Positions 9,197-63,386 of a DNA stretch of 64,000 nt are shown here, piece after piece. The notes beneath the pieces were generated by a model. That model had not been told where the DNA came from. It saw only the letters and a program-made list of their open reading frames with translations, and searched no databases. Position numbers and translations under genes: made by a program. Origin of the DNA: Epinephelus fuscoguttatus (Eukaryota; Chordata; Actinopteri; Perciformes; Serranidae); the NCBI RefSeq assembly GCF_011397635.1, contig NC_064769.1, positions 13,099,207-13,163,206 on the forward strand, read 5' to 3'. The first letter of the stretch is position 1; the number at the start of each line of letters is the position of its first letter.

Positions 9197-12100
9197 AGCT
9201 GGTACACTAAAACAAACAAGCCATACGATAAGCAATACAATAAGAGCCCTGACTCAACAGTCTATTGAGATATGCCCCGTGTCCGTGTCAACAGACGCTG
9301 CAGAAATCAAACAGGTGAGTTGAATTATTCTGAATGTCAAATCTCACAGTGATTCAGTGCCAGCAGATGCACCGGGCCTCAGGTTTGCACACAGTCAAGT
9401 TCAAATCACCAGCTCAGGCCCAGCTGCTGTTGATGATGTATCCGTTTAGTGACCTCGCATCATTTACCTGTTAATACCCACTGCCATGCTTTCTGCATCA
9501 ACTAGTTCTACACTTGGTAAGATCACGGCCAGTAGAAGTGAAATCTAAACATTCAAGAGACCAGGGTCTGGAACGCCTAGATTTCCATTCTGAGTGACCA
9601 CTTCAGGTAGGATGTTGTTGTTGTTCATAGGGGTGGAGGTGAGACTGTTGTTCTCCCGTGCCAACATGTAGGCGGCCATAGTCTCTGCAGACTCTGATGA
9701 TGGCAAAAAGGAGCTGGGTGGGGACGGGCGTGCCCCCTGGGAGGGATGCTGCCCCTCTACGGCATCACTTGAGCGTTTGGACGAGTCGTTGTCCGAGTCG
9801 AGGTGTGCGAGCTTTTCCATCCAGATGCGGAAGCGCTCCTCAGTCTGGCGCTGCATCACGGCAAATCGCGTCATGGCCTCCTCCAGAACGCTGCCGATGC
9901 CGTTCCTGTCCCACGAACTGGTGTCCAGCAGCCCATGAATCTGGGCGCCCACTCTGGATCTCTCCGATGCACGTCTGAAGCCAGCTTTAAAGACATTGAG
10001 GCCAAGCCATAAGAAAATACAGTAGCACTTTCATGCTTCGGAGGTGGACTTTTGTATTAAAGAGAAAAATGACAGTTTGTTTTTGGTTACGTGCAGATCA
10101 ACTCTTTCATGCTGATGGACTACATCATGCAGTTGAAGCACTCAAATCTGTGTGCGGGATGTAAAAATGGTTGAAAACATTTCATGTAGTACGGATCCCT
10201 AAAGGAAAATAACTGCTAGATGTCTCAGGCGACTCATTCAGTGACCGTTTGGAAAATGTGTTAACTGGAGAGACTTTGAGGTTAGAAACACCCATTGGAG
10301 GGAAAGTCATTACAAACCTATCATGAAGGGCAACGTACATGTCTAACAATATTTTCTTTGAAATAAATATGCGTCATGGTATATGCCAAAATAGGCTCCT
10401 TGTAAAACACCTCTATGGTGCTCCTGACAAAAATCTAAGAATAGATAAACTAGTTCCAGTGTGGAAACACAGTAAGTGACCTAAACGATCATTTGACACC
10501 CCACCAGCTAAATTCTGAAGTTCACAGAAAAGAAAAACTGCCTACCAGAGCAAACACAAAAAGTTTTGTTCTAGGAAATGCAATCACAGTGAAAAGATCA
10601 GCCTAAAGTTAACAAAGTGACTTCAACAGCAGCAGCAAGCCTTTGAATATCACCAAGTTAGTAACTACTTACTCAACTCACCCGAGAGATTTCTACAGCC
10701 ATCAGGAAACATTAGATTAACTAAAGGAACAAGCACAGGGCCAATAATGTCAGTGTTTACTTGTATTAGACACTTCTGTGCCTGAGTTAAGCTTTCAGCA
10801 TACAGACATCCTCAGTCAGAGCTGTATGCCTTAGTGTTTTCTGGACACAAGAGTTAAGTGACTTGTCAAGGTGCCACAGCACCCATTATAGAGAAGAGAA
10901 CCACCTGTCGGCAATTCTAAAAAGCTTCCTGTGTAGAGTGACAAGTACGATAGACCTAAGGAATATTCAAAAGCAGCAGGAAAGCAGGATATAGGCTACT
11001 AAATGTCTAGTAGTCTTTGGGTGCTATAGATATAAATCTTTTAACTTGACTCTTGAGCATTCTAATAAAATGGCACATAAAATATGACTTTGAGTCTATA
11101 TTCCTACCAGCACACCAACACTGAGCAGAAACTGCAGAGTCCTGCAACTCAGACTAACACAGTGTGATCATACACCATTCATTGTCTATTTACAGCAAAG
11201 GCTGAGGATATAAATGGCTCACTTGTTGAATTGCAGAGCTTGTAATATAGGTTAGATTAACACAACTCCGTTTGTATCGTTACATGAGTTGAAGAATGTC
11301 CACTAGACTTCCACAGCATGCAAACGATGAGACAAAGCTCCAACTAAACATGTACTGTATTACTACAAGTGACTGGACACAGGCCCTCCTAAACACACAA
11401 TCTAAGTATCTAAAAACAGGGTGAATGAAGACAGATGATGAGTGAGAAAATAACCAAAGAAAAAAGAGAACGTGATGATCAAACAAACACAAACAAAGCA
11501 GTGCTTGTACTGATCTGATATTCCAAAGTCTTTGTACAGCCCTACATGTTCTTACTATGTGTGGCAAGTGTACAATTTGGTTGGGTTGCCTGAAAGTTTT
11601 AAGTTTTGCAGACAGCCTCTACTTGTCAAGTGCTCTATGGTTGAGTCTGATGGCTAGTCATCTTTGGTAGTCATACACTGCAGGCCTATGTTTTTCTGTT
11701 GCTATGTGAGACAGTGTTTTACATGGGTTATCTAAGTGGCTGCTACTATCACCCTGTACTGCTACACAGTGGTAGTAGTATTGTGCTATAGGCATGTGTT
11801 GTGAACATTGGATGTTACCTGAAATATCTGTCTTGATTGTCTTGCTACCTCCTGAAGTGTCATCGTCGTCGTCCTCAGAGGAGCTGGTGCTGGAGTCACA
11901 TGTGAGCTCGCTGTCACTCGTACTGCTGTCCTGCAGCAGGTTATATTTCTTCCGTGCTGCCGCCTCCCGTTTTTGCCTCAGCAAACGCATCCGCTCCTTG
12001 TGTTTCTGGCTCCGGTGACCTTTCACTTTTGCCAGCTTGCCATTGGTTTGTTTCTCCTGCCCTCCAGCTGCTACCAAGGTGGGCTGACAGCGGTTTTTCT

Positions 12101-12656
12101 TTGCAGCCATTGCATTGGGCGGCATCTCACTCTCCGATCGTGACCGCCGAGATTTTCTGCCCCCTGTAGCGTTGGCAGATGATTGCCTTCCTGCTGCCTG
12201 CCCAGGATCATTTGAAGCTTCCATGTTGCCATCTTCCTCCTTTCCTGTGGGAGGAGCAGCACCTTCTTCCCCTGAGGAGAGTGTGTCTGAGTCAGCAAGG
12301 TGGCCACTGGATGATGGGGAAAGCATGCAGGGGTTTGAGGAGTCACTCTCATAGATATGACGAGATACAGGCTTGTCACTCCCTGTAGAGGCATGCTGGG
12401 ACTCTGGGGAGTCTCGGCGGAGCTCCTTCATCAGGCATGGCATGGAGAGGAGACTCTGCTCGCCCTCTGTATTCAAGGGACTGTCTGCCTCCTTCTCCCT
12501 CGGTGGTGAGCTGGTACTGGTGGTGGTCTCTGTTTTCAGATGCTCATCCTGCTCTCCCTGAGCAGAGCCTGTAGCTGATTGTGCTTCATCAAGGCACTCC
12601 GGGGGGTACTCAGCATACACTAATTCCTCTGCCTTCTCTGAGTCAGCCATCTTCAT
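5933..12656 (-). CDS. ark2n: ARK2N (C18orf25/ARKL1), Arkadia N-terminal-like protein
   Basis: Four coding exons join in frame to 437 residues: 12656-11819, 6968-6798, 6334-6220 and 6122-5933. Internal phases are 1, 1 and 2, and every junction is GT-AG. The protein matches vertebrate C18orf25/ARKL1, a relative of the N-terminal half of the ubiquitin ligase Arkadia (RNF111) without its RING domain. Visible landmarks are the serine-rich [16 protein letters not shown] block, the basic [17 protein letters not shown] helix, and an acidic Ser/Asp tract. The C-terminal exons carry two SUMO-interacting motifs, VEIVGV and VVDLTLDED, as in Arkadia. The start is placed at MKM because the human protein begins MKM and an upstream in-frame ATG (12689) lacks family support. 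A non-coding first exon probably ends at 13623. It is divergent from atp5fa1. The family is linked to SUMO recognition and casein kinase 2 binding; the role in fish is inferred. Confidence 0.92.
9152..9194. repeat. (TG)n microsatellite
   Basis: A near-perfect run of TG dinucleotides about 43 bp long in the large ark2n intron. Likely to vary in length between individuals. Confidence 0.95.
9545..9984 (-). CDS. Possible alternative last coding exon of ark2n
   Basis: An open frame runs from a possible acceptor (TCTTTAAAG, exon from 9984) to a TAG at 9545. It lies inside the ark2n intron on the same strand. Its phase (1) equals that of the donor at 11819, so splicing would give a 425-residue form ending in this exon. 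The encoded 146 residues include a charged helical stretch ([20 protein letters not shown] then [15 protein letters not shown]) and a low-complexity Ser/Asn tail. I do not recognise it as a named domain. The composition and the helix look like real coding sequence, not chance. The acceptor has only a modest pyrimidine tract. It could instead belong to a separate small gene. Confidence 0.5.
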
Positions 12657-13923
12657 GCTAGTTGAGCCCAGAGCCCAAAGGTCCAACAAACATGGACCAA
12701 TGTGCCTGGACAGGAGCTCACCTGCTGGAAGAAAAACACATCACTAATTCCATTTCACAGGCTTAGTCTGTGCATCAGTGCAAAAGGGCTGGGTATCTGA
12801 CAGCATAGGCAATAACTAAAGGCAATTTTACACACTGTGGAAATTCAGTAATATTATTATAGTGGCATCAAAATGAAATATTTCTCATTAAACATATGTT
12901 AGCTCTCCTGTTCAATTTTACTGGTTTACAACAGTAGCATGTTCAAGGTACTTTTCCTCCTTCAATGATAAAAATGCAGCTTTAAACTTATTCTGTACAT
13001 TTTGTACTGGATTAACATGTTGCATAACCACTGACTGTTCACATACCAAAAACAACAAATAATCTAATGTAATTTTTAGCAGCAATTTGGCCATAAATTC
13101 CCACTACCGATATAACTGGTAAGAAATTTACGTTAGTTAGCTTATGAGTGCGATGAACGCTACTTTTACTTGGGTTTTGGTGTTACCTTAACGTTACGTC
13201 TCAGACTTCTGTCTGAAAATGATTTCTTCAATGTCTATTAAACCTCCTCAGCCACATTACACCAAGACTGCGTCCAGTGAAACATTTACTGGCGGTTTGA
13301 GTTAATGGCTTTAGTTAGTTTGGTCTGTAGCTAGCTGAAGCTAGCACAGGCTCGGATCCAGACACTACTTTTAGCTGCGTAGTGAAGCTAACCTCGGTCA
13401 TAACCTTACACTCCGCAAACTTGGCGAGAACAAGACCACAAGTCATAGGAAAATGTTCCGGTTGCAGGACAGCTGCCTCACAAGATCCTATAAATGGAAG
13501 CAGTATCTACCCATCCAGAGGCGTAACAGACAGGATAATGTCAGCAGCTACGGGCTAACGTTATCTCAGTCGAGGCGGTAGCCAACTAGCATTTAAAATC
13601 GGCTGCGCTCTGCACAACTTACCGCGGTGTTAGTTATATTCCTCTTTTCCCAGTGTCAGACTTTTCAACATCTTCGGTAATTTGTAGCGTCTTTGATTTA
13701 CGATGCATAAACGATGCACTGCTAGATATACTTTACTACTTTACAACTTGGAAGTATTTGAACGTGTTTTGGCGCAGTGCGCTCGCACCTTCGCGAGCCC
13801 TGTTAGCCTTTAGCGGTTAGCTGTATGTTTATTTTAAAATGTCTCCATCAGCCGTCCGTCTTTCACAAAGCTACATGCGCCACTTCCGGTCTCATCCACT
13901 CAGTCGAGCGCCCCTGTGGGCCG
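12657..13923 (-). promoter_or_regulatory. ark2n 5' UTR, first intron and promoter region
   Basis: The coding exon extends upstream to an acceptor near 12726-12721. A donor (CCGCG then GTAAGT on the minus strand) ends a probable non-coding first exon at 13623. Above it lies a GC-richer segment with an ETS-type ACTTCCGG at 13882-13889, a typical element of TATA-less housekeeping promoters. Exact transcription start is not visible. Confidence 0.5.
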
Positions 13924-15171: not shown

Positions 15172-19880
<4,709 letters not shown>

Positions 19881-20990: not shown

Positions 20991-21873
20991 TATTCTATAT
21001 CCAGCTGGAGCCACAGTGCTTTCTTCACTTCTAGTTTATTTATGACAAGCACTGAATCAGTGTATCTCTCTTAATTCACCGCTATGTAGTCTAAGCCTGC
21101 AGCTAAGGCTCAGTATCATCAGTAATCTCCTGCATCTCTATTTGCGCTGGGGGAAAATTGTAACATGAAACCCACAAACACTAAAACTATCATGCCCTCT
21201 GCTGGTGAAGAAGCACATGGTAGATGTCCAAATTGAAAAATCCTATTAAGATTTATTTGTAATTTAAAAATATGTTTGATAAGGTTGGACAGGCCAGTAC
21301 AAACAAAATTAATCTTGCTCAAACCCCATAAATGTTATTCCCCCCCCCCCCCCCCCCCCATACTGATTACTACTACTTTTAATATGTCTACAAATTTCAA
21401 TTTTCTTGTGTGACAATAATTCATTTTAATGGAAAGATAACCAAGAGGCACTTAACTAAATTATAAATTAGACTTTATTATTCACAGTGAATCAAAACAT
21501 TTAAATCAAGCAGCAGTGAATGTTAATCAATGTGAATGTTTATGAAATCCAGAACTGGCTGAACAGCCTCCGTTGACATGAAACAGTGACTATAATTTAG
21601 ATGAACATAAGTGAAGAAGTGCATATTATATATTTCATGATGGCATAAGTGAAGGTGCACAGTAAATATTTCACAATTTGAACAAGTTCAGTGGCAGAGT
21701 GCACTTGTATAAAAAAAATTGAGTGAATTTAAACTAGTGATCATTAGTGAGACAAACTAAATAAATGACAACTCTGTGTCTTTCCAAAAAGTAAAACATA
21801 CACATATAATTTAAATTAAATAAATAAGTAATAAAAATAAATAAACATTAAAACCACTGACAGCTGGAACATG
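20991..21873 (-). other. Probable 3' UTR and downstream flank of the hwa-like gene
   Basis: AT-rich DNA 3' of the hwa-like stop codon. A reverse-strand AATAAA (TTTATT on plus at 21474-21479) about 400 bp after the stop is the best polyadenylation candidate. The C homopolymer at 21339-21359 lies beyond it. The gene is tail-to-tail with atp5fa1. Confidence 0.45.
21339..21359. repeat. Poly-C run
   Basis: Twenty-one consecutive C bases on the plus strand between atp5fa1 and hwa. Such runs can form i-motif or G-quadruplex structures and are prone to length errors in assemblies. Confidence 0.95.
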
Positions 21874-24834
21874 TCACACCCAGTACTGTTTGGTGTGCAC
21901 TGCAGGTCTGTGGTGTTTATGTTTGGGCACATTATTCTGCTTGACATAGCAGGGGTCATAATAATCCCACTCCAGGGCTGAAGTCAGAACACCGTTGGAC
22001 AGACCGTCACTGTCCGACAGAATCCGCAGGGAGACACCTGAAAAGAAAAATAAATGACATTTCCATTCATTTAAACCAACAAAAGATGACCCATTAAGAG
22101 AAGTTTTTTCCTCATACTGTTCCCCTAGTCTACTTGTCTTGATGCAGTGGTAGTATTAGTTATTGATGACAGTCATATTGATTACAGTGCAGCTGAAGGA
22201 GACCAAAGCGTACCTGCACTTGCACCAAAATCGCTGTCAAGTCCAGGACCCACTGCAGATGTGTTCAGGCAGGACGCCTCTAAGGGTGGATTGATGCACT
22301 CACACTCTGTGTGTACTTTGTCAAACACGTGCACCGCAGCACCTGGGTTCACGTCTGTCAGCATATCATAAGTGCTGCTGCGACGAAGATGGCCCACATG
22401 TTCTGTCTCCTGCTGAGAACAGAGGAAAGAAATACAGACTTCACTCTTTGAATAGGAGTTTCTGCTTCATACTGGATGTTGGATCTTAGATCAGGGTTCC
22501 CACACATTTTCATGGACAAAATTTCCAAACTTTTCCATGACTTTTCAAGGATCCATAATGTAGCATTTTCTGTTTCTTGCGTCACTTGCCCAGCATTTTA
22601 GAAACATACCAGATTCAAACTCTATTCAAACATAATTTCAGCTAGCTGGCATACAGGAAGGGAGAGATGAACCCAGGGAGAAAATGACAAAATGTATGCA
22701 ATGGTAAACAAAGCATCACAGATTGACACATACAGTATTAGAGCTATGTTATGTCCAAAGCTACAGAAAATTAATTTCCCCTTATGTTACATTACATTGA
22801 AGGTAATCCATAGAAGATTATTGTAACGATTTCATTAAACAACAAAATTCCATGCCTTTTCCAAAACTTTCAATAAATTAGACCCATTCAATGACTTTCC
22901 CAGGCCTGGAAAATGTGATGACTATGGGAACCCAGCTGGATGGACATGCATTTGTGTTATTTTTAAAGTGATCATCTTACAATTTTGTACAGATTTCTTG
23001 CTCACTACTCTTTGTGCTGATTATTGTAACACGATGTTGCTTTAACCTGTCCTGTTTGTCTGGAATAAACCAAATAAGATGGGTGGGGGAGTTAGTATAA
23101 GCAGTGACAGCCAACAGCAGACCTCCAGAGGCCCTCAAAAATCCCAGACGTTACTGTGTGGCAATTGTGGTAGTTTTATGGACTCTGACTTTGTTTGGTA
23201 ATATAGGAACATGCGGCACTAAAGCAAATATTACCTGACACAATAGGGCCCTAAAAGTGGGTTCTGCTTTATTAGCTGACTTTAAGGCCCGATGACAAAA
23301 TCTACTTGTAACACCTTAACTTTTTTACCTCAAATTTACCTCAAATTACCACACAGGAAACCTGGGGCCAGATATTATTCCAGGAATACTGTAGACAAAA
23401 TACAGAGAAGGAGAGTAAGGGCTCAGTTATGCTCAATATTAGATATGTTTTCTGAGACGAATGAAGCATTCTGTTCGTACTCTGGATTTCTTCATATTCC
23501 GTCAATATTTGCATGTTGTTTTCTGAAGGTTTATGGATACAGATGAAATACAGCAGTACCGCCAGAGATCCCGGGCGCAGTGTAGGTTATTTCAAGCAAG
23601 ATACGACCGTAGCAGACAACGAAAACATTTAAAATTCGGTGAAACAGAACAAATCTGTAATGTAGTGAAAAGAATTCTTCGTCCACATGCCATGATGTAT
23701 AATGGCCTCACAGACCACCATCGTCTACAACAATGCCTCCACTGAAAGGTACAATATTAGACCAGGTCTATCGTCAACAGGAACTTTTGACTCTCACTTC
23801 TAGTGCCATCTATAAGCTGTATTTATGACATCATAAAGGATGCCTGGAAGTGTGAGTGAAGTGATGTTTACAACGTTTGAAAAAGAGGTACATAGTTTAG
23901 TAAGCAAAGGGAGGATAAATGAGCGATAACAGGGTGTTTAAGAGGGGCCCAGTGGCTCATTTTTGCCCTGGGGCCCCAAGGCAAGTTAATCCGGCCATGC
24001 TGTTTGAGTAGAATCACTAGAATTTGGCATCACTGGCCTAAGGCATTGTTAAAATGTGAATATCGGTGTTTGCCTTTAGGATAAGGTGTATGTTTAGGCC
24101 ATGTTTCCTGCAGATGTTGTTGAATTAATATCCACTAATTAGTCAGTCTGCTACTTTATAATAACTTCCCAATGTCTCAGGACTCACTGGGCCCCTGCCT
24201 TATTTAGAGTTATGTACACCCAGAGTGGACCACTCACCGTTGGAGAGTTTGGCGGAACAAGGTTCACCCTGATTTCAGCCTCTGAGTCACTGGACTGCGG
24301 TAAAACTGGTGCGCTTTTACACCATCCCGTTTTACTGATGCTGCATGTCCGTGACCCGGAGGGCAGGTCGAGTCTCGAGGTGAACCCAGCCGCAGAGGGG
24401 GTGGCCCGGATGGTGCTCGGCGCCCTCAGGGACCCTAAGCCGGTGGCGCCATCTGGCCTCAGGAGCCGGTTCCTGTGATCCACCCCGGCCCTCTCCCTGG
24501 ATGAAGCCCTGGAGGAGGTGACAGGATGGGGCAGGACGGGCTCCGATACAGACATGTAAGGTCTCCTCCCGTCCTGCAGCGAGGGGAAAACCACATCGGA
24601 TACTCTTCTGACTCTCTGCAGGGTGGACTGCAAAAGCATCTCCTCTGCGTCCTCTCGCTCCTGCCTGTTGCTCTTCTTCTTTGACAGGATCAGTAACTTG
24701 TAAACCAGGAAGAAACAGTTCAGCAGGAGCAGAATGACCACGCAGGGTATGAGCAAAAGGACCACTAAGGTCAGATTTGTCACAGGGTAACCTTCTGTCA
24801 GGTTTGAAGGTGTGGTCTGACTTGTTTGCGACAT
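21874..24834 (-). CDS. hwa: Huluwa-like single-pass membrane protein
   Basis: Three coding exons: 24834-24238, 22412-22214 and 22037-21874 (319 residues, phases 0 and 1). Residues 1-20 form a short outside tail with two N-glycosylation sequons (NLT at 11 and 20). Residues about 21-45 are a strongly hydrophobic membrane segment, followed by Lys/Arg stop-transfer residues and a long cytoplasmic tail. The tail carries PPNSP (194-198) at the end of exon 1 and LRRSST (208-213) at the start of exon 2. As I recall, these two short motifs define Huluwa, the maternal protein that drives Axin loss and beta-catenin stabilisation on the future dorsal side in zebrafish and Xenopus. Known zebrafish Hwa is of similar size (about 294). 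An upstream in-frame ATG (24999) overlaps a possible acceptor, so MSQ was chosen. The first base of exon 2 could shift by one CAG. Confidence 0.8.
22492..22935. repeat. MITE with CAGGGTTCCCACA ends in hwa intron 1
   Basis: Starts CAGGGTTCCCACACATTTTC and ends in TGGGAACCCAG, imperfect inverted ends. The inside repeats phrases such as TTTTCCATGACTTTTC near the left end and TGACTTTCCCAGGCCTGGAA near the right, a well-known fish hAT-type MITE layout. Confidence 0.7.
22936..24237. other. Rest of hwa intron 1
   Basis: No exon recognised. At about 23935-24000 there is a fragment (GGGGCCCAGTGGCTCATTTT ... GGGGCCCCAAGGC ... TTAATCCGGCCATG) that resembles the ends of the repeat around 31230-33095. 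Short open frames at 23292-23745 lack coding character. Confidence 0.45.
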
Positions 24835-26046
24835 TTCATTCCAGAGGACATGAAGGGTGAATTTTAGAGAATCGCTGATCTCAACTGAGATTGCACGTCG
24901 TCTCTGAACGCACAGGTGGTTTGGTGTGTCAATCAATGTGGACTGTTTGAAAGTATTTTTGATCCAGCAGCAACATGCCAGCCTTCTTCTGAAATGCATG
25001 CAGTCTCCAAGTGGGAACGAAGTGTTTCATCTCTCTTGTCTTCATCATTATAGACTAACGCTGTCAGTGTTAACAAAGCAAAGGCTTGATCTGAGACAAC
25101 TATGCAACCCACTCTCAGTTGGCAGCCACATGAATTACAGATCAACAGGTGTGCCCTATTATGTGCAGGATGCTTGGCGCTGTCATGGCAAAGATTGGCC
25201 GCTAGATGGCAGCACGAGGTGGACTCCTGCTTCACTGCATCTGAAAGTGCTGCAGCGATCATATTCATGCTCTGAACTGTGATTTTATGGACTTCAGTGT
25301 TGCTGAGGACTCTTGTAGTCCACTTATACAGGCACACTGGACATTTGTCACAAAGAAGAGCAGAGAACAGAAGTCAAATTGTGTTTTTTTTTTTTTTTAT
25401 TTATTTTTCATGCTTCCAAACATTTCTATATCAGGTAATAATCATACACCAACTGCTGGCTCCTCACAGAATATATACAATCATTTTCAAATAATTCAAT
25501 AGAACATTTGACAGATGAGTCTCTCTTAGAGACAATATGTTTGCATTTTGTACACAAAGTAGATCCTTGTACACAAGTATATATGCTATTGTAATAAATC
25601 AATGCAAAAGATCGGTCATATGAGCACCATATAACTATAATAAAGTTTTTTCTTCTTCTACCATTCAGGTTTAAGGAAGTCTATACAGACTTGAATAGCA
25701 CACTGATATCCTGCTAAAGGCTTGCAAGTATAACAGTACAGATAACTCTTTTATTCAAGATAAAGGCTATTGAGTCAATGGACGCCCTCAGATACCAAAG
25801 ACCCCATTCATCACTTCTACACTCACTGCTCAGATGGCATCGTAGGTGTTGTGCGTCGTGCCTGCAGAAAGTCACCTCCTCGCTGAACAACAACTCACTT
25901 AAGCGCTGCTTGCCGTTCCCAAACACAATAAGAGGTTGTGATTGGTTGTGATAATTAGCACCTCAGGCAAGGCTGTGTTTGTGAATTGATAACAACATAC
26001 ACACATGGTGAAGCTGTGTCAAATCAGGTCAGTGAATGAAAGCAGA
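24835..26046 (-). other. Spacer between hwa and the dnajb5-like gene
   Basis: Holds the hwa 5' UTR and promoter (a possible acceptor TTTCAG at about 24985 suggests a non-coding first exon further up) and the 3' UTR of the dnajb5-like gene. Reverse AATAAA candidates are at about 25750 and 25396-25405. A T-rich run lies at 25383-25400. No other gene seen. Confidence 0.4.
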
Positions 26047-29000
26047 CTAGCACTGAGCCAGGCTGTGCTTGATGATCTCGCGGGACTGCGGTGGGATCCT
26101 GTCAGGGAAGAGCACCTGGAACTCCACCACCAAGTCGCCTCGCTGAGATGGGCTCTTGGGCAGGGGCAGGCCTTCGCCCCTCAGCCGCCGGACAGCGCCT
26201 GGCTTGATAACATCGCTGCATGGTAGAGGCATCATCCGGTTGTCAAGTGTTGGGACATTAACTGTGCAGCCACAGAGAGCCTGGTGAGACAAAAGGAAGA
26301 GAAAAGTTAGTTTTGTTGACTTGTTATATTTAGAGCATGTTTCATAATGCTTCCTGAGTGGCCTTGTTGTGACTGGTGTGAAGCACATTTGGATCATAAG
26401 AAAAAAATCAATTAAATGCCTGATATTTAAATGTGTCAAGTTGCATAACAGATAAATATAGAGTGTCTGTCTTTCAAAAAGCATAAAGATTTTCTGTGTT
26501 ATGCAACAAGCCGGTGTTACAGATGTTATAATCGCTGCCCTATTTGCAGGCACTGTGTGGGAGTTAAATGCTTCAGTGACTGAAGGGAGCCATAGGAAGA
26601 TGGAGGGGGCTCTTTGAAATGCCACTCTCTGTGACTGCTACCCTGCTAATCTGTGCGTGGGTTGGTAGAAGTGAGAGCCAGAGACGGAGCCTGCCAAAAA
26701 AGCGGCCTCTCTGCCTGCCATGTAGAGGCAGAGGAGTCTGCGGCACACATCGTAGCTGAGAGAAGCAGAGTGAAGTGTGATTCGTGGGGGCAGTCAGCAC
26801 TGTGGCTAAATTTAGCTCCTGCTCTCTCTCGCTCTGCAGGGGCCGATGAGGTAACGAAGGCGTTGGCAGACTGCTGCTGCTGTTCTGTTAGCGGGGGTCT
26901 GTCAGCCCATTGTAAGCTGGGGGCTCAGATGCCCGCAGCAGAACAACGTGTTCTGTCCTGACACTAAAATCAAAAATATCACCTTCTCTGGATTTGGCAG
27001 AGATCGAACATTCTGTCTTATTGATGCCCTTCTGTAATCAATTGTTTTTGGTATTTCAGAAGATGCATCATTCTACGGTTACATAAAGGATAAGAAGTGG
27101 TGGATGGATGAACGCCTTTCTCTGAGTAGGTGTGAGGTGTTGGCAATTACATAGTATATCTACTTATAAACCTGTGACGTGTTTCATAATAAATTTAGGT
27201 GTGATGGCCTCAGTAGGAGTCAAACACCAGACCTTTGAGCCTGACATCAGTGCACTGAACTCACCTCCTTGAGGGTGATCTGGGCCGTGAAGACGATGTT
27301 GGAGCCTTCTCTCTTGTACTGCGAGTGCTCCTGGTCCCTGAGAATGAAGGTGATGTCTGCGGGGGTGTTGTTGGGCGTCTCGTCTCCCTCCCTGGGGAAG
27401 GTGATCTTGGTCCCCGCTTTCCAGCCCTTCTTCACCACCACATTTAGCACTTTCTCCTCGGTTCGCACGCTGCGGCCGTCAGGGTTGAGGCGGCTGCGGG
27501 TGATCTTCACGTGCTTCGTGCAGCCTTGCATCACCTCCTCTAGGGTCACCAGCAGATCGTGCACCACCTCGTCGCCCTGCAGCCGCCGCTGGCCCCTTCG
27601 CAGCCCACCCTCGCCGCCGGAGAACCCGCCCACGTGGCTGAAGGGGAACCTTCTAAAGGGGTTGAAGAGGTCATCTTCGGCGTCGTTGTCGTTGCTGAAG
27701 AAGATGTCGAAGTGGTCGGAGCCGTGGAAGAAGGAGGAGAAGGTGGCGTGGGGGTCAGTGTGGAAGTTATTGCGAAACACGCTGCCTTGGCCGGCCATTG
27801 ACATTCCATTTTTAAGACCTAAAAACACAGACAGAAACAGAAAAAGTTAATTTAAATTCATTAAAACCCGCAGCTTTACACAGTGATTCATTCTTATTCT
27901 AATATTGGTGCTTGTTTCATGCAAAGTCTGCCTCTCTCTCCAGAAGGTTTCCCAAACATCTGCTATTTAGGAGTTTTCAGGAAAACTCTAAGGTTGCTGA
28001 ATAATTCATCAGCCCTGCAGCTGTCTATGCTGCACATATTTAGCAGCTTTAATAAGTGTGGAAGTGTTTCAGTCATGATCCTCCCACTGCACATCAGTAT
28101 TTAGCCTTAATGAAGACATGAATAGTCAATGCACCCACCTGTGCGACAGTAATTAACCAGATGTCAGTCACAGTTTGCGCCATTTAACTCCTGTCATTAA
28201 AATCTCACCTTCTTCTCCAAACTGGTCGTAGATGCTTCTCTTTTTGGGGTCGGTCAGGATCTCGTAGGCCTCTGCGATCTCTTTGAACTTGTCCTCTGCG
28301 TCCGCATCGCTGTTCTTGTCTGGGTGGAACTTGAGAGCCATCTTCCTGTAGGCCTTCTTGATCTCGTCTTCGTTGGAATCAGGGGAGACACCCAGGACTT
28401 TGTAGAAGTCCTTGCCTGTGGGTTTGATGGCCAGGCAGGGCGTGTCCTGCTCGGACTTGGTGCCTTCCTGTGGACACAAGGACAGTCAGACATTAGATCA
28501 TTTACTTATCATATCTCCACTCCAAAAAAAAAAAAACCTCTTCAAAGAATGCACTTTTTATGAACTCGAATGGTGCATGCTGCAAGAAGGCTGATGATGA
28601 ATAAGTCATGAGGGTGTAAATTTAAATATTTATCCACCACACTACACTACAAAGCAGGAAGGTTCATGTATTGGACATGCTCCACACTAGCTGCTGCACA
28701 TATCTATTAATATGCAAGAAAATTACCCCTCCAGCAAAGACACTCTCTGGGAAAACACCCTTATCTCTGTGTTGCTGTGCAGCTGCATATCCATAGATTT
28801 TACAGGCTGGTGCACAATTCAACGTGAGAGAGAGTGAGAGAGAGAGAGAGTGAGAGGAGGGGAGTCGTGAGGGGCAAAAGATTTCCCCCAACGACCGAGA
28901 TGCTCTGCAGCGATTGGCTGAGCGTGAATCGGCGACTATTGCATTTTGAATGGATCCACAGCAACAGACATAAAGTCAGTGATACTGAGGGATGTCCACT

Positions 29001-53110: not shown

Positions 53111-63386
<10,276 letters not shown>

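Follow-up and report, generated by a model that had tools for sequence, protein, structure and literature searches.

Which gene occupies positions 24834 to 21874 on the minus strand of the analysed window (the whole stretch of 64,000 nucleotides, C18:13099207-13163206 of the host genome), and what could its product do in the embryo? The motifs of the translated protein, its anatomy and one short published peptide indicate that this gene is very probably the animal's huluwa (hwa), with its frame intact. Hwa is the maternal dorsal determinant in zebrafish and Xenopus; the huluwa product, supplied by the egg, sets where the embryo's back forms. A huluwa gene as such is expected in fish. The interest of the locus lies in the residues that may hold tankyrase, in the role that UUCAC may have in placing the mRNA, and in a Cdk16 preference that is perhaps specific to zebrafish.

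Spliced translation joins three minus-strand exons into a product of 319 amino acids with no internal stop, and retranslation reproduced both the coordinates and the 319-residue product given in the original prediction. Exon 1 (24238..24834, 597 nt) encodes residues 1-199, which comprise the outside tail, the membrane segment and the cytoplasmic tail as far as PPNSPT. Exon 2 (22214..22412, 199 nt) encodes residues 200-265 and base 1 of codon 266, and exon 3 (21874..22037, 164 nt including the stop) carries the C-terminus, which ends in KQYWV (residues 315-319). The two introns are bounded by GT-AG, and their acceptors are rich in pyrimidines. Intron 1 (22413..24237, minus strand, 1825 bp) runs from the donor ACG/GTGAGT to the acceptor CTGTTCTCAG/CAG (the slash marks the exon border), which forms a CAGCAG (NAGNAG) tandem. 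It separates the two signature motifs, with PPNSP in exon 1 and RRSST in exon 2, in agreement with the earlier statement that both flank this junction across a 1.8-kb intron.

Eight ORFs from neighbouring genes served to train a codon score, which was compared among the six frames of each exon. The annotated frame scored 0.144 in exon 2 and 0.148 in exon 3, the other five frames being negative in each, and the GC-rich exon 1 gave no discrimination (0.167 in frame vs 0.183 and 0.188 in two others). Since the annotated frame scores best in exon 3, the C-terminal exon looks coding. A reading of the terminal KQYWV as a PDZ ligand was not adopted; all that favours it is a loose likeness to DSWV (ARVC, CTND2; in a passage of PMC3276551), and it remains a lead.

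The position of the start codon is tentative, and so is the length of the outside tail that depends on it. Upstream of the proposed start, the frame continues open to an in-frame ATG at -165 (55 codons earlier), and retention of intron 2 would stop the product at 275 residues. Both observations would suit a huluwa with another N- or C-terminus, arising from the upstream start or from an alternative last exon, to which we give a small chance. At the N-terminal end, the zebrafish construct GST-Hwa(deltaN46) (in a passage of PMC11576741) suggests a short N-terminal part, and we infer that this agrees in approximate size with the short outside tail and membrane segment found here. At the C-terminal end, exon 3 scores best as coding sequence in the annotated frame, its acceptor is rich in pyrimidines, and an AATAAA begins at nt 395 past the stop. 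An upstream reading frame of 17 codons (24798..24851, minus strand), in a different frame, overlaps the proposed hwa start codon and might damp hwa translation, only if the transcript reaches it. This small frame has a second possible start at -5.

The encoded protein has the anatomy that had been ascribed to it: a short sequon-bearing outside tail, one membrane segment and a long cytoplasmic tail with PPNSP and LRRSST were all found in the translation. Sequons (NLT) occur at 11 and 20, and a third (NTS) at 249 in the tail. The single hydrophobic segment reaches a top 19-residue Kyte-Doolittle mean of 3.1 (window start 23). A second hydrophobic segment was not found, with no 19-residue window above 1.0 on this scale starting outside residues 6-54. 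Hydropathy, together with helix pLDDT block means of 90-97 over residues 21-50, places the transmembrane segment at about residues 21-48 (24691..24774, minus strand); it is followed by KKK at 52-54 and a long hydrophilic tail. AlphaFold2, run on the exon 1 part alone as a single sequence with no alignment, returned a helix over residues 17-82 and, for residues 119-199, a pLDDT below 50 with two short low-confidence strands. A short outside tail, a single pass and a long tail are common to this gene and to zebrafish and Xenopus Huluwa, and, in passages of PMC11576741, Hwa is said to cross the membrane once, with an outside part that is not essential and a large inside part that is disordered.

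The conserved motifs of Hwa are PPNSP and RRSST, according to the same passages (PMC11576741). PPNSP was found at residues 194-198 (24241..24255, minus strand), with Ser197 as the equivalent of zebrafish Ser168, and LRRSST at residues 208-213 of the translation (22371..22388, minus strand; RRSST 209-213). Each motif, PPN[ST]P and RRSST, occurs once in the six-frame translation of the whole window. Across 60 first-order Markov sequences of window length, the mean counts were 0.017 for PPN[ST]P, 0.18 for RRSST and 0 for VN.VPPN[ST]P. Because the first two means are this low, the presence of PPNSP and RRSST in one spliced frame is not a matter of chance.

The order VNxVPPNSP then RRSST is common to Huluwa and the gene described here, as is an SP site suited to CDK/GSK3-type kinases. 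The zebrafish Ser168 peptide VNTVPPNSPVLR (in a passage of PMC11576741) and VNLVPPNSPTQE here are identical at 8/12 positions and at 8/9 over the first nine, a comparison limited to one published 12-residue peptide and not extending to full-length Hwa. All three residues after PPNSP differ, being TQE here (TET with the alternative acceptor) vs VLR in zebrafish Hwa. The serine of the phospho-site is residue 197 here and 168 in zebrafish, and the distance from this serine to RRSST is 12 residues here vs 18 in zebrafish (RRSST 186-190, derived from 188-SST-190 in a passage of PMC11576741). The PPP(S/T)P motif of LRP5/6 shares with Hwa that a membrane-tethered, phosphorylated proline-rich motif acts on beta-catenin (same source, in part). 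In contrast to LRP5/6, Hwa has one PPNSP and no large receptor domain, and its reported route is tankyrase and Axin degradation.

The frame that is intact over three exons, the GT-AG sites, the coding bias of exons 2 and 3, the presence of both motifs and the motif cluster 3' of the gene (see below) all speak for a gene in use. We therefore consider it very unlikely that huluwa is present here but out of use for axis formation, despite the precedent of another teleost, the annual killifish Nothobranchius furzeri, in which hwa is reportedly truncated, and despite the post-PPNSP residues, including the +4 arginine, that differ from those of zebrafish.

No Pfam family reached its cutoff with the 319-aa product, and no PDB chain matched it at E<=1. 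The best Pfam match of the whole product was TMEM9 (PF05434) at residues 21-71 (E 0.026, 14.8 bits vs a curated cutoff of 28.6); with residues 1-110 only, it improved to E 0.0038 and 17.6 bits, slightly beating the best of nine block-shuffled copies. The match spans the membrane helix and adjoining downstream residues only, 7/9 shuffled copies had at least one match at E<=10, and E-values of 0.0066 and 0.0067 to unrelated membrane families were among them. Since shuffled copies thus reach similar E-values with other membrane families, the match appears to be mostly one of composition, and TMEM9 kinship was set aside. That the gene encodes another single-pass membrane adaptor (e.g., TMEM9- or TMEM154-like) with PPNSP and RRSST by coincidence is hardly credible, as the two Hwa motifs sharing one frame lie far past chance expectation. 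Because the motifs and the peptide match, Pfam and PDB are blank, and the TMEM9 match is near the level of shuffled copies, we file the gene as huluwa. The original prediction of a Huluwa is hence supported by both published motifs in their order, by the membrane anatomy and by the zebrafish peptide, with no rival family above cutoff. Searches for hwa relatives gave 21 pattern matches in viral contigs, none of which was confirmed, and 391 in prokaryote genomes, again with none confirmed, as expected.

Taken together, we consider it highly probable that the locus is explained by huluwa with a vegetal mRNA placed via UUCAC, phosphorylation of Ser197, and recruitment of tankyrase with Axin loss and an effect on beta-catenin. 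Maternal hwa mRNA would most likely travel to the oocyte's vegetal pole, aided by the UUCAC cluster of its 3' UTR, which proteins of the Igf2bp3/Vg1RBP type may read. After fertilisation, the single-pass Hwa would act where the dorsal side is to form. The Ser197 of PPNSP would be phosphorylated by CDK/GSK3-type kinases, and the Hwa tail would recruit tankyrase, so that Axin is degraded and beta-catenin stabilised; phosphorylation of PPNSP may act on top of tankyrase docking by RLLRPDG/RILSDSDG. The vegetal mRNA, the serine phosphorylation and the action through tankyrase, Axin and beta-catenin are carried over by homology from zebrafish and Xenopus. Computed here were the gene structure, the intact frame, the signature motifs, the single place of exons 1 and 3 in the genome, and the UUCAC cluster. 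Three additions, namely the part given to the UUCAC cluster, the tankyrase motif and the consequence of the lost +4 arginine, are predictions from the sequence. Atlantic halibut has maternal hwa, with levels that are high in unfertilised eggs and during cleavage and that drop after the mid-blastula transition (in a passage of PMC12722812).

The Cdk16 preference of zebrafish Hwa is credited to an arginine at +4 (SPVLR) in the Discussion of PMC11576741. This arginine marks a kinase preference, i.e., a zebrafish-type subtype, and is not a mark of the Hwa family. It is absent here: exon 1 ends one codon past PPNSP, the next residues are QE, and the site reads SPTQE, or SPTET with the alternative acceptor, leaving E or T at +4. 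Therefore, weaker use of Cdk16 is predicted, with kinases of the Cdk2/GSK3 type taking the load. Use of the second AG of the CAGCAG tandem acceptor (22410-22415, minus strand) would drop Gln200, which lies between PPNSPT and RRSST.

It had also been remarked that exon skipping or intron retention would separate the two motifs. Translation bore this out, since skipping of exon 2 and retention of intron 1 each lead to 216 aa in which PPNSP is kept and RRSST is lost. These predicted isoforms also keep RLLRPDG and lose RILSDSDG. Zebrafish RRSST mutants retain some activity (in a passage of PMC11576741), and therefore the exon-2-skipped or intron-1-retained isoforms, if made, might be weak and not dead.

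The reported activities of Hwa include binding to tankyrase and promotion of Axin degradation, with Ser168 and PPNSP influencing the binding (passages of PMC11576741). We identified a candidate extended tankyrase-binding motif, RLLRPDGAT, at residues 123-131 (24442..24468, minus strand; R1-x5-G7 pattern) and a second one, RILSDSDG, at residues 270-277 (22003..22026, minus strand), from the pattern only. RNF146, a soluble ubiquitin ligase, has the extended motif RSRRPDGQC, which has R1, R4, P5, D6 and G7 in common with RLLRPDGAT and likewise an R-to-G spacing of canonical +1; tankyrase binding through the Hwa motif is a prediction from this pattern. Table 3 of PMC10706912 gives the RNF146 motif a score of 0.53. 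The canonical R-x-x-x-x-G motif is absent from the hwa product, though its loose form appeared in 14,238/20,000 shuffles of the tail. R..RPDG arose in 6/20,000 tail shuffles. One or more strong cores, canonical or extended, turned up in 1922/20,000, so that a single core by itself is weak; at least two distinct [GPASV]DG cores, as with RLLRPDG plus RILSDSDG, were present in 74/20,000. Since the patterns were picked post hoc, with the sequence already seen, the motifs are a lead and not proof.

We propose that RLLRPDG (123-129), perhaps together with RILSDSDG (270-277), may form a docking site for the ankyrin clusters of tankyrase. The proposal is a new inference; the literature passages that matched deal with other subjects, and a 2026 review on tankyrase mentions neither 'huluwa' nor 'hwa'. 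In a more speculative extension, which has a modest chance of being right, Hwa would be a membrane-anchored tankyrase recruiter that works via RNF146-type motifs, with the 216-aa isoforms as a dial for dorsal strength and with the kinase input moved from Cdk16, the latter owing to loss of the +4 arginine where the exons join.

The inferred 3' UTR (21459..21873, minus strand, 415 nt) ends just past the first AATAAA (21479-21474). Its 415 nt contain six TTCAC, all within 241 nt, as well as three TGCAC and 14 CAC. AU-rich motifs, CPE-like motifs and one GCACTT, a miR-430-type match, are also present; being either too frequent or too sparse, they were given no weight. In the localisation elements of Vg1 and VegT, UUCAC serves as the Vera/Vg1RBP motif, and Vg1 has four copies of it over about 350 nt (in a passage of PMC1973087). 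Clustering of UUCAC in the 3' UTR is common to these elements and the hwa flank, which differs from Vg1 in having six copies in 241 nt; there is a single copy of the partner motif VM1 (YYUCU), and localisation is a prediction in the present case. The cluster fits the vegetal position of zebrafish hwa mRNA (in a passage of PMC11576741), and we regard it as a candidate vegetal localisation element of hwa mRNA. As for possible readers, Igf2bp3 binds the vg1 3' UTR and localises vg1 in Xenopus, and in zebrafish it influences the vegetal dazl and wnt8a RNAs (in a passage of PMC8282044). Such localisation motifs alone are insufficient for transport, as a passage of PMC5974320 states.

How unusual is the cluster? 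TTCAC was one of seven motif classes scanned in the flank and was then followed. Dinucleotide shuffles of the 415 nt gave six TTCAC in 0/5000 cases and 14 CAC in 2/5000. On both strands of the 64-kb sequence, 4/2544 windows held six TTCAC; all four overlapped the hwa flank, and the best elsewhere was five. A control not made up of 3' UTRs, 20 x 10 kb stretches (200 kb) from the same genome, gave six TTCAC in 0/15,360 overlapping windows (maximum 5), and the maximum was 3 in the 1157 GC-matched windows. A REPFIND-like cluster P for TTCAC, calculated with our own simple background, was 8e-7; in the SIRF paper, known elements span a range that includes a cluster P of 1e-4. With the expectation taken from a Markov model of its own 415 nt, TTCAC had a Poisson P of 0.001, which ranks it third of the 5-mers after TCACT and ATTTA and would fail correction for 1024 words. 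TCACT, which overlaps TTCAC, has 8 copies and is more enriched, and two of the six TTCAC sit in a repeated decamer, TTCACTTATG. The 415-nt 3' flank of the neighbouring DnaJ-B gene holds three TTCAC.

The host genome searched comprises 1,046,998,120 bases in 26 contigs; its size and the compactness of the genes suggest a fish. Exon 1 and exon 3 had one genomic match each at E<=0.001, and tblastn within the window at E<=1 returned the three hwa exons and one chance match (E 0.98). As far as tested, and judged on exons 1 and 3, hwa is single-copy. A repeated or processed copy was considered, and both searches argue against it.

The ATP synthase alpha gene was found on the plus strand of the same window, which agrees with the predicted adjacency to atp5fa1. 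Its last exon, recognised by eye, ends with a stop at 19880 and it therefore stands tail-to-tail with hwa. Just past the inferred 3' end of hwa, the plus strand has 20 consecutive C (21340-21359). Upstream of hwa and on the same strand, a DnaJ-B type gene (about 26047-28485, minus strand) has J domain and DnaJ_C exons. Neither a tRNA nor an Rfam family at gathering score was found in the window. Pfam further recognised an RNF111_N (Arkadia N-terminus) domain at 11658-12740 on the minus strand; an ORF at 9545-10030 (minus strand), with no Pfam match at E<=0.01, may be a further exon of this gene (9545-12740). In human, C18orf25/ARKL1 adjoins ATP5F1A. A thrombospondin/COMP-type gene (minus strand, Pfam) has exons at 59839-60153 and 61955-62350, and, judged by eye, the ORFs around 54.4-55.0 kb and 62.3-63.5 kb resemble further parts of this gene.
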